Positions 17,419-19,951 of a stretch of DNA of 25,559 bases are shown here, one piece after another. Below the pieces are notes generated by a model that ran no database searches, was not told where the DNA came from, and worked only from the letters and a program-made list of their open reading frames with translations. The stretch's first letter is position 1, and every line of letters starts with the position of its first letter. Source of the DNA: a virus; the IMG/VR virus record IMGVR_UViG_3300044701_000001, positions 1 to 25,559 of that record, one strand, 5' to 3'. A program made the translations under genes and the position numbers.

Positions 17419-18039
17419 TCAGATGTATGTAGTTTGCATTGCCAAAGGAACGCCAGAGAATTGACCCTTCTCGTCAGAGCGAGTCAATGAACCCATAGCT
17501 CTGTCAAACATAGTTCCCCATGTATTGATTCGAGCATCGTTCATCAAGTAAGGCTCGGCTTCAATCAAAGCACCATACAAGAGCAAGTCAGGACAAACAG
17601 TCAAGAATGTATTACTTGTATTCGATGTACTCAAGAAAGGAGGCGCAGCAGAATAAACCAAACTCAATGTGTAAGCAAAATCAGGAATAGGTGCTAACTT
17701 AAATGTGCTTGCCAAAACTGTGTAATCCAATGGCTTACCTGCGTCCATGCTTCGTGAGTTACGAGAGAACAAAGATGGGGATTCGTAGTTCAATGGAAAT
17801 ACAGGATTACCTGCAACCACAAAATCTTTTACTTCCAAGAAGTCAGATGGGATATTAACTGTAGCTGTTCCAGATGTGCAGGTCAAAGATGTAGAAGTCA
17901 ACATCTGACGAATACGCAAGTCTCTGCGTAAGCGTACTTCTGCCAAACGGATAAAGTCTGGAATCTGAGTCGTTAGGTCTGAACGAGCCAAGTATTCTGC
18001 AATAGTTGTCTGTAGTTCAGCATAGGTAGTAAAACTCAT
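17419..18039 (-). CDS. head-tail adaptor protein (SU10/P22 gp4-type)
   Basis: The 206-aa product begins MSFTTYAELQTTIAEYLARS and DFIRLAEVRLRRDLRIRQM. This is an N-terminal helical pattern typical of SU10-type adaptor proteins, followed by a beta part (SDFLEVKDFVV…) and a C-terminal helical segment (YGALIEAEPYLMNDARINTW). Adaptors dock under the portal dodecamer and connect it to the gp10-like hub encoded next. The start has AGGAG five to six bases upstream and overlaps the 101-aa gene as ATGA. Confidence 0.8.
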   Translation of the reverse strand: MSFTTYAELQTTIAEYLARSDLTTQIPDFIRLAEVRLRRDLRIRQMLTSTSLTCTSGTATVNIPSDFLEVKDFVVAGNPVFPLNYESPSLFSRNSRSMDAGKPLDYTVLASTFKLAPIPDFAYTLSLVYSAAPPFLSTSNTSNTFLTVCPDLLLYGALIEAEPYLMNDARINTWGTMFDRAMGSLTRSDEKGQFSGVPLAMQTTYI

Positions 18040-18341
18040 ACAACTCCTGTTCTAGTGCGCCAAGCACGATTCATTGGGTCATTTAACCAAACAGCAAAAC
18101 GCTTCTCATCTACCACAGCATAACCACGCATGATGCCCTCTTTGTTTAGGTCATCAATAACTGTCAAAGGAATAGATGCAACCTTGTTGCCAAACAATTG
18201 GTCAGACCATCTTGCTCTCTCGTCATACGAGTTATATTCTTTTTTATTCTGCTCAACAATGTCAGACACATCCTGACGAGTCTGAATAACGATGCCACCT
18301 TCGCCATCGGCATGAACAGCAGTTTGTCTAATGTTTTCCAT
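18036..18341 (-). CDS. small hypothetical head-region protein (101 aa)
   Basis: The product MENIRQTAVHADGEGGIVIQ…DVSDIVEQNKKEYNS…GNKVASIPLTVIDDLNKEGI…WLNDPMNRAWRTRTGVV is soluble, with a distinctive C-terminal WLNDPxNRAWRTRxG motif. I recall similar short proteins beside capsid genes in short-tailed phages, without a known function. It is linked to the adaptor gene by an ATGA overlap. It has no visible RBS, and a candidate extended -10 (TGATAGAAT) ends seven bases before its ATG. It may be leaderless or read by leakage through the upstream terminator. Confidence 0.7.
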   Translation of the reverse strand: MENIRQTAVHADGEGGIVIQTRQDVSDIVEQNKKEYNSYDERARWSDQLFGNKVASIPLTVIDDLNKEGIMRGYAVVDEKRFAVWLNDPMNRAWRTRTGVV

Positions 18342-18347
18342 AATGCA

Positions 18348-18356
18348 ATTCTATCA
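18348..18356 (-). promoter_or_regulatory. weak extended -10-like element upstream of the 101-aa gene
   Basis: On the - strand TGATAGAAT gives a TGn-TAGAAT extended -10 with five of six matches. It lies between the HNH terminator and the next gene. No -35 match is present. A start from it would fall at or near the ATG at 18341. Confidence 0.3.
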
Positions 18357-18365
18357 GTTTTGGTT

Positions 18366-18390
18366 AAAAAACACACATTATTTAATGTGC
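18366..18390 (-). terminator. candidate intrinsic terminator of the HNH gene
   Basis: CACATT/AATGTG arms around a 4-nt loop, with a possible G·U extension, are followed on the - strand by TGT and then six T. The stem is only 6-7 bp and A+T-rich, so termination may be partial. It overlaps the TAA stop codon of the HNH gene. Confidence 0.5.
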
Positions 18391-18947
18391 AACCAAGTTC
18401 TTCCAATCCTTACACCTCTTACGCAACTAGGCGAAACTTCTAGCAGTTTTGCTAATTGTGCGTGAGGCAAATCACTTGCTCTTATAAATCTTACTTTTTC
18501 TTCATTAAGGACTGATTTGCCATTTTTATCACCAGAGGAAGTAACAACACGCTTTCTTCCTTTTGCAATCATATCTTGCGTATTTTCTTTAGGTGTTCCA
18601 ATTATTAAATGCTCTGGATTACAGCACTCAGGATTGTCACACTTGTGCATAACAAACATACCTTCTGGAATCTTTTGCTTGTTATGAATTTCCCAAGAAA
18701 GCCTATGGGCTAACGTATATCCATCCGTTTTTTTACCAGTTGATATACGCCCATAACCCAAAGCCTTGTTGCCAATCCAACTCCAGCAAGATTCATTCTT
18801 CACTACAAACTTCCAGAATCTTTCTTCAATTGGTGCTTGGTTTTTTGTTCCTCCAAATGGAGTTCCATATCGTCTTAATCTCAAATAGTGCTTATTGCAC
18901 ATTCCAGATTTTGTTGCTTCTTTATCACAATTTTCAACGCTACACAT
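18378..18947 (-). CDS. HNH homing endonuclease with N-terminal zinc finger and C-terminal HTH
   Basis: From the ATG at 18947 this 189-aa protein has three parts. The first is an N-terminal zinc-knuckle-like motif (C-x4-C-x9-C-x2-H at 2-20). The second is an HNH nuclease core with His81 (AHRLSW), Cys103/Cys108/Cys109 and His101/His113 (MHKCDNPECCNPEHL), and Asn122 (GTPKENTQDM). The third is a C-terminal segment (about 145-188; SVLNEEKVRFIRAS…LAKLLEVSPSCVRGVRIGRTW) that reads as a helix-turn-helix used by homing endonucleases to bind target DNA. It lies just after the capsid gene and is A+T-rich. The frame extends eight codons upstream into the terminator hairpin; ATG 18947 is preferred. Its only Shine-Dalgarno-like sequence (GGGGG) lies inside that hairpin. 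Confidence 0.92.
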   Translation of the reverse strand: MCSVENCDKEATKSGMCNKHYLRLRRYGTPFGGTKNQAPIEERFWKFVVKNESCWSWIGNKALGYGRISTGKKTDGYTLAHRLSWEIHNKQKIPEGMFVMHKCDNPECCNPEHLIIGTPKENTQDMIAKGRKRVVTSSGDKNGKSVLNEEKVRFIRASDLPHAQLAKLLEVSPSCVRGVRIGRTWLHIK

Positions 18948-18980
18948 AAAAATGCCCCCATGAATTAACATGAGGGCATT
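18948..18980 (-). terminator. strong intrinsic terminator after the major capsid gene
   Basis: In - strand RNA, AATGCCCTCATG pairs with CATGGGGGCATT over 12 bp (one G·U pair) around a 6-nt loop. The pattern ends in five U, two of them in the stem. The same stem in + strand RNA has an A/C mismatch and no U-run, so it is built for the - strand. It begins 20 nt after the capsid stop codon. The 3' arm holds the GGGGG upstream of the HNH start codon. Confidence 0.85.
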
Positions 18981-19000
18981 GTATCACATCAATGTGAGTA

Positions 19001-19951
19001 TTATGGCGTTAAATCCGCGATAATGCCATGAGCAGCTTGGTTTTTAACTTCCAAGGTGTACTCAGCCAACAACTGTGTAGACTCATTGTCGCCAGTTACA
19101 GCCAACTCGTTGGTCTGGAAAGGACGCAGATAAGCGATAGCAGCCATGTCAGGGTCAAGCACAAATGCTGTCTCGTCACATGAGTTGGTAGATGTCATAA
19201 AGCGGTTAGGAACAACGGAAATTGTACCGAAATCGCTCATGTAAACATCGGCAGCCGCCACGATTGTGGTAGGGCTGTTAGATGGGGCCATGAAACGCTG
19301 AGCAGCAATACCAGCAAAAGCAGAAACTACTTGCTTGTGTGCAGGGTTGACCATCAACACTTTAGGATTGCCACCAGAGGCGTAAACTTGACGAACAACA
19401 GATTGCAACAAGGCTTCTGTGAAAGTGCGGTTTGTGCCGTTAACACGAGCAGTTGTTCCCAAAGAACCAGCAACACCATCAGTACCGCCAGAGTAGTTTG
19501 TGTTCAACCATGCTTGCAGACCACCCAATTTACGAGCAGTAGAAGAATCACCATTGGCAGCAATCTGGTTGCTCAACAGGGAAGTTTCCATGTCCCGCTT
19601 AATTTCGCTGGATGCTTTAGCCAGTTGATAGGCTTTTTCTGATTTGCGGCCAGCTTTGTCCACGCTCTGCAAAGTGCCAGAAATCTTGATAGTCTTCTGT
19701 GCAATCTGAGTGCGGTTGCCAACACGAGTTGTTGGAGACATAGTAGCGTCAGATGCTGTTGCACCCTCGACTGCAAAGTTTGACAGAGTTGCTGCTGCCA
19801 AAGAATCAGTCTGCCACTCGTGCAAAACAGCAGTAGCCTTTGTCTTGCCAATGGAAGACATAAAAGGTGTGTCTGTGGGGCTGATGTTATAGATAACGTC
19901 AGAGAGGTCTTCACGCATACCGATTGCGGTATATGTTTGATAGGTAGCCAT
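19001..19951 (-). CDS. major capsid protein (SU10/DUF5309-type, HK97 fold)
   Basis: The 316-aa product starts MATYQTYTAIGMREDLSDVI, YNISPTDTPFMSSIGKT and HEWQTDSLA, a hallmark N-terminal sequence of the DUF5309/SU10 major head protein family. Further family-like segments are GNRTQIAQKTIKISGT, KRDMETSLLSNQIA, PKVLMVNPAHKQVVSAFAG and QLLAEYTLEVKNQAAHGIIADL near the C-terminus. It forms the HK97-fold shell. GGAG lies about nine bases before the ATG. It follows the scaffold gene by 18 nt and ends at a strong terminator, as expected for a very highly expressed gene. Confidence 0.93.
   Translation of the reverse strand: MATYQTYTAIGMREDLSDVIYNISPTDTPFMSSIGKTKATAVLHEWQTDSLAAATLSNFAVEGATASDATMSPTTRVGNRTQIAQKTIKISGTLQSVDKAGRKSEKAYQLAKASSEIKRDMETSLLSNQIAANGDSSTARKLGGLQAWLNTNYSGGTDGVAGSLGTTARVNGTNRTFTEALLQSVVRQVYASGGNPKVLMVNPAHKQVVSAFAGIAAQRFMAPSNSPTTIVAAADVYMSDFGTISVVPNRFMTSTNSCDETAFVLDPDMAAIAYLRPFQTNELAVTGDNESTQLLAEYTLEVKNQAAHGIIADLTP

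Follow-up and report, generated by a model that had tools for sequence, protein, structure and literature searches.

Gene Order at the Capsid-HNH Junction

The window, i.e., the whole stretch of DNA that was analyzed, is an IMG/VR virus record of 25,559 bases in which the minus strand carries an SU10-type head module. This module is composed of genes for a portal (PF23899), a scaffold, the major capsid protein (PF17236), an HNH protein, a PHROG-3982 protein and an SU10 adaptor (PF24175). The HNH gene product is a putative homing-family endonuclease, as judged from its matches to HNH_3 (E 3.5e-12) and to PHROG HNH endonuclease (E 1.6e-30). Its start codon, AUG 18947, is supported by aligned homologues, which start there or within a few codons. 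The capsid stop codon occupies 19001-19003, and 20 nt separate it from the foot of a hairpin that precedes the HNH start. The features at this junction are:

19001..19951, minus strand: SU10-type major capsid protein gene (PF17236), upstream neighbor of the HNH gene
18378..18947, minus strand: HNH endonuclease gene (HNH_3)
18036-18341, minus strand: PHROG-3982 gene, next after the HNH gene
18951..18980, minus strand: hairpin sequestering the Shine-Dalgarno sequence (SD), 12-bp stem and 6-nt loop, from folding and from covariation over 14 distinct variants
18955..18959, minus strand: SD GGGGG in the 3' arm of the hairpin, 7 nt from the AUG
18972..18977, minus strand: anti-SD GCCCTC, preceded by the -10 box and followed by the predicted transcription start, paired with GGGGG in the fold
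18948..18952, minus strand: UUUUU run in the SD-AUG spacer, a possible weak terminator tail that is not conserved across loci with the HNH gene

Other variations in gene content were observed nearby. About 650 nt of extra sequence is found between the PHROG-3982 and adaptor genes of L108, L110, L119 and their relatives, and is absent in the clade of the window. In L123, L125, L126 and L127 there is extra sequence between the scaffold and capsid matches, the capsid match of L123, L125 and L127 starting only at residue 15; this may possibly reflect another insertion at the 5' end of the capsid gene.

A Hairpin That Contains the Shine-Dalgarno Sequence

The minus strand at 18980-18951 reads AATGCCCTCATG-TTAATT-CATGGGGGCATT, which gives 12 pairs, one of them U-G. 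Folded as minus-strand RNA, the region 18935-19003 reaches -25.0 kcal/mol (z -4.3), a value equaled by none of 200 shuffles, and z varies between about -4 and -5 depending on the stretch folded. On the plus strand a C.A mismatch interrupts the stem and the fold reaches -19.5 kcal/mol, i.e., all 12 pairs form on the minus-strand RNA only. The GGGGG run is the only good SD for AUG 18947, while the in-frame ATG at 18971 has no SD. An earlier note, made from the letters of the window alone, had described this minus-strand stem, its asymmetry and the GGGGG run in its 3' arm as the sole SD-like run of the HNH gene, and the fold agrees with it on each of these points. A search of Rfam returned no match to the window, and a tRNA/tmRNA search found none.

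A Predicted Promoter at the Foot of the Hairpin

The earlier note had recognized the masking of the ribosome-binding site (RBS) but had overlooked a promoter that would make the hairpin a switch. A sigma70-like extended -10 box, TGATACAAT, overlaps the foot of the hairpin by three bases, with which the box ends and the hairpin begins. The six bases that separate this box from the predicted transcription start are GCCCTC, i.e., the anti-SD itself:

18978..18986, minus strand: extended -10 box TGATACAAT of the HNH gene (hexamer TACAAT 18978-18983), from motif match and from comparison of leaders with and without the HNH gene
18971, minus strand: predicted +1 (A), placed from the -10 spacing; this A also opens an in-frame ATG, from which a leaderless start would be possible

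Because the predicted start falls past the anti-SD, RNA from the -10 box of the HNH gene should be incapable of forming the stem. In agreement with this prediction, the long RNA (minus 19003-18917) folds at -30.2 kcal/mol (z -5.05), while the predicted short RNA (minus 18971-18917) folds no better than shuffles (z +0.66). The HNH promoter of the window is without a good -35 element and would rely on the extended -10, which is why a generic two-box promoter scan omitted it.

Only three matches to TGNTANAAT are found in the window with both strands counted. Two of these, in the HNH leader and before the next gene (18348-18356), are on the minus strand, and each is located exactly 6 nt ahead of an ATG. 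The start of that next gene, PHROG-3982 (18339-18356, minus strand), has no SD, and 72 of 80 close relatives retain the arrangement TGATAGAAT-6 nt-ATG; this suggests that the gene may be expressed as a leaderless mRNA from an extended -10 promoter of its own.

The -10 box was scored across loci in a search interval fixed relative to the stem, with a threshold of 8 bits and with matrices of approximate sigma70 frequencies; the sigma factor preferences of the host, like its anti-SD, may differ from those assumed. A strong -10 (at least 8 bits) was found in 33 of 53 leaders with the HNH gene (HNH+), in none of 146 leaders without it (HNH-free) and at 0.5% of random positions. Most of the HNH+ loci without a strong -10 have TTGAC-type two-box promoters (TTGACA-17-TAGGAT in L105, L121, L128, L131 and L171; TTGACT-17-TAGAAT in L286), for which the start is predicted 17-22 nt ahead of the AUG, again past the anti-SD. 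For the L149-type clade, the -35/-10 spacer contains the anti-SD and the predicted start is near the loop; the L150/L152/L153 clade, with a weak -10 (TATGGA), is the least secure of the promoter cases. The predicted internal promoter appears to be positioned such that its RNA is without the 5' arm.

Burial of the Shine-Dalgarno Sequence in Related Loci

A set of 320 loci was collected from viral-contig scans, for which the capsid protein, the HNH protein and capsid proteins from two further clades served as queries. The HNH gene lies between the capsid and PHROG-3982 genes in L085-L157 and in 17 loci found via the capsid, and wherever it does so a hairpin precedes its start codon with the SD in the 3' arm. 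The leaders analyzed below come from 53 distinct HNH+ loci, including L325, and represent 16 HNH clusters at 70% identity.

On the long RNA, the probability that the SD is unpaired is at most 0.04 in 52 of these 53 leaders and 0.25 in L325; a homologue that keeps the HNH gene but loses the pairing was looked for, and none was found among the 53. The predicted cost of opening the SD on this RNA has a median of 16.9 kcal/mol (range 9.6-22.0), against 2.6 kcal/mol for the starts of 124 other genes in these loci (Mann-Whitney p 7e-26). The loci are related but enter the test as if independent, such that the p-values are overstated and the cluster count is the safer measure. Each of the 16 clusters has an opening cost of at least 9.6 kcal/mol. 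The downstream gene of HNH-free loci opens at 2.9 kcal/mol, and HNH RNA begun at the predicted start at 3.4 kcal/mol; in L085, the allele of which is identical to that of the window, the cost falls from 18.0 on the long to 2.9 kcal/mol on the short RNA. The short RNAs are moderately open only, at about 3 kcal/mol, which is comparable to ordinary genes. Weak pairing of short RNAs with sequence further downstream made a truncation sweep by 50% accessibility noisy, and opening energy was adopted in its place.

Relatives of the HNH gene in other contexts, sampled in nine phages (Vibrio 1.191.O and 1.079.O, S-CBS4, Nepra, Mx9, Katbat, CHF1, Spp16 and phiGT1), have open SDs at 0.7-5.5 kcal/mol, values that are approximate as they refer to annotated starts. 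The only relative elsewhere with the masked layout is that of L325, the P22-coat-type Manatee Spring phage MW202691 (10.9 kcal/mol). The switch consequently appears to accompany this cassette and this kind of locus, to which L325 is added. In L325 (MW202691.1, 2430-2500), which is outside the SU10-type capsid family, the related HNH gene is found right behind the coat gene and a TATAAT lies within the SD-masking hairpin. In L326 (Sulfitobacter phage phiGT1, 1316-3052), two HNH genes flank two small genes behind the major head gene; a masking hairpin is found at neither of the two HNH starts.

Covariation of the Stem

Alignment of homologous junctions yielded 14 distinct 12-bp hairpins, gapless apart from the flank, in which 168 of 168 cells are paired. 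Seven of the 12 pairs have changed on both sides (28 cells) with the pairing always kept. None of 500 shuffles reaches the covariation score of the stem, and slid versions pair in 40-56% of cells. All one-sided changes lead to G-U pairs, which are impossible on the opposite strand. The kept pairing and these G-U changes indicate that selection has acted on the sense RNA and not on a DNA palindrome. Together, SD burial, opening energies and covariation in the homologues lend strong, model-based support to the proposal of the earlier note that the RBS would be sequestered on read-through RNA.

A Mobile Cassette in Place of the Native Terminator

Comparison of L010 (HNH+) with L009 (HNH-free) delimits an inserted unit. 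The two loci are 99% identical up to the capsid stop, right behind which homology breaks. It resumes within the latter half of the native U-tract, with 94% identity beyond that point, and the intervening segment measures about 629 nt in L010 but about 50 in L009. According to these junctions, the cassette would have supplied its own promoter and hairpin while the native stem was removed. In the HNH-free relatives of the window, the capsid gene is followed by a standard native terminator, AATGCCTCAGA...TCTGGGGCATTTTCTTTTCT, the U-tract of which is longer than that of the window; no window-type hairpin was found among these relatives, upper stem and loop both being different. Hence, the native capsid terminator of this lineage has given way to a mobile HNH cassette of about 630 bp, to which the hairpin belongs:

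18371..19000, minus strand: mobile cassette (leader and HNH gene), approximate extent transferred from the L010 and L009 junctions
18366..18390, minus strand: weak terminator-like hairpin made of the HNH 3' end and the leftover native U-run (GCACATT-AAAT-AATGTGT-GTTTTTT)

The second of these features is found with variations in L085-L092, L094 and L095, and the cassette insertion may have rebuilt a terminator behind itself. A clean insertion is seen also in L132 relative to L210, the flanks being 98% identical on either side; in L132 the HNH gene is followed by the surviving native terminator and preceded by an SD hairpin without a U-run. When mapped on a capsid tree (233 rows, 55 of them positive), HNH presence or absence has changed at least 43 times, a patchy distribution as expected of a mobile gene, and this pattern together with the clean junctions points to mobility of the cassette. 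In L056 and L067, both HNH-free, an HNH-type leader start (CTCACATAGATGTGATAC) is joined past the capsid stop to a native-type terminator; these junctions are likely remnants of HNH loss or recombination.

The earlier note had called the hairpin the capsid terminator and had proposed that one element both terminates transcription and silences translation. A stem followed by UUUUU is indeed present in the window, but the hairpin is that of the cassette and the native one is different. A U-tract of about seven or more was sought for terminator status; here there are five, followed immediately by the AUG, and the longest U-run between SD and AUG is at most three in 28 of 53 HNH+ leaders. Silencing is probably the conserved role, and termination a lineage-specific and weak addition; modest terminator activity is plausible in the lineage of the window.

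A Proposed Promoter-Hairpin Switch and Alternative Explanations

From the above discussion, the element is best described as a promoter-hairpin switch on a mobile, free-standing HNH cassette behind the major capsid gene, a reading to which a probability of about 0.8 is assigned. Computation has shown here that the structure exists, covaries and is universal in the family, that a -10 box is located with it and that the cassette is mobile. If read-through RNA from the capsid gene enters the HNH gene, this RNA would hold the entire hairpin, in which GCCCUC pairs with GGGGG. Provided that translation tracks accessibility, the paired GGGGG would bar the ribosome such that no nuclease is made from capsid-operon messages; ribosomes that end capsid synthesis would probably not open the stem, which is 20 nt off, given the usual ribosome footprint. 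If instead the promoter of the cassette fires, RNA begun at TGATACAAT would start about 7 nt further, at A18971 past the anti-SD, could not make the hairpin and would be translatable. Since the -10 box looks host-type, synthesis of the nuclease may simply follow the firing of its own promoter, with silencing on capsid RNA, and the timing is possibly for that reason the reverse of the late-only pattern of T4. More tentatively, and with odds somewhat below even, this would be a widespread, T4-independent selfish cassette in which the -10-to-start interval serves as anti-SD, transcript origin decides translation and the T4 timing is inverted. If so, the phage would be spared overproduction of the nuclease from its structural operon.

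The stem with its UUUUU, which is the best terminator-like site in the scan, could instead be the intrinsic terminator of the capsid gene, with the HNH gene inserted right behind and the SD overlap incidental; the terminator of HNH-free relatives is found at the same place and has a similar-looking lower stem (AATGCC/GGGGCATT). Yet the hairpin arrived with the cassette and displaced that terminator, L132 retains its native terminator downstream of the HNH gene, the U-runs are short in the 28 leaders mentioned above, and the SD is within the stem in every HNH+ case. Termination as the main role was rejected on these grounds, and we regard this explanation as quite improbable. Even less credible, to the point of being very improbable, is that the palindrome acts as DNA, i.e., as an operator or a homing site for the HNH protein. 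There is a precedent in I-TevI, which autorepresses via an operator overlapping its late promoter (PMC2988022), but in the present family the sequence varies while pairing stays, where a protein-binding site would conserve sequence, and the G-U changes described above are possible in sense RNA only; the operator was rejected on this covariation.

Somewhat more room, although it too is unlikely, is left for a leaderless short RNA in the lineage of the window, which would start at ATG 18971, add eight residues and make the masking of GGGGG less important. This ATG is in frame, is located 6 nt past the -10 box, the same spacing as in the SD-less next gene, and that gene keeps its arrangement in the close relatives noted above. 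However, the in-frame ATG is restricted to the nearest clade (L085-L094); elsewhere this position lacks a start codon, or has one whose reading frame leads to a stop, and the SD and the later AUG are conserved everywhere.

Comparison with Known Systems

Descriptions of RBS masking in homing endonucleases have hitherto been confined to a few T4-type genes; in the present case it appears to have originated in, or spread to, unrelated aquatic phages whose capsid is SU10-type, in 16 diverged HNH clusters. What appears to be new is the combination of the known T4-type masking logic with a host-type promoter, in phages that are unrelated to T4; searches of open-licence papers returned no account of such an arrangement of HNH and capsid genes. 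The compensatory changes and the matched loci with and without the HNH gene make it possible to ask, by comparison, why mobile nucleases have to be silenced on the transcripts of their neighbors. The compact layout, with -10 box, anti-SD, start site, loop, SD and AUG in about 45 nt, may aid recognition of such switches, and cautions against annotating such hairpins merely as capsid terminators.

Inhibitory structures at start regions are known also for the T4 genes e, soc and 49, with an effect of about 100-fold measured for e (PMC3014915). As proposed for the HNH gene, the structure of e forms on longer transcripts (PMC3014915), but e, soc and 49 are ordinary phage genes and not mobile elements. 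In Bacillus subtilis sigG, a conserved 5'-leader hairpin occludes the RBS and reduces translation up to 4-fold (PMC5942855). In contrast to the HNH gene, sigG is a chromosomal sigma-factor gene, and its hairpin is reported to damp expression of the gene itself without sorting by transcript origin.

The closest precedents are the hairpin-regulated phage homing endonucleases, the sequence-testable features of which (I-TevI/segB/mobE kind) appear to be shared by the switch. In T4 I-TevI, transcripts from upstream promoters are the only ones on which the RBS is sequestered, and the late promoter is placed such that late RNA is without the 5' arm (PMC2988022). The earlier note had appealed to this T4 precedent, and similar arrangements are reported for I-TevII, I-TevIII, segB and mobE of Aeromonas phage Aeh1 (PMC2988022). 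The present system would resemble I-TevI, I-TevII and I-TevIII in that the SD is masked on upstream-promoter RNA and an internal promoter gives RNA without the 5' arm. Those genes are intron-encoded, belong to T4-type phages and use middle or late T4 promoters, whereas the HNH gene is free-standing, is located behind an SU10-type capsid gene and has a host-type -10 box. Aeh1 mobE and T4 segB are likewise free-standing endonuclease genes, and their leaders combine a promoter with a hairpin that masks the SD; mobE is an HNH gene, and T4 mobE also holds a weak intrinsic terminator of about 30% (PMC2988022). These two genes are found in the nrd and tRNA regions of another phage family. Unlike in mobE and segB, the interval between -10 and +1 of the predicted promoter here is the anti-SD in many lineages, with covariation evidence for the pairing.
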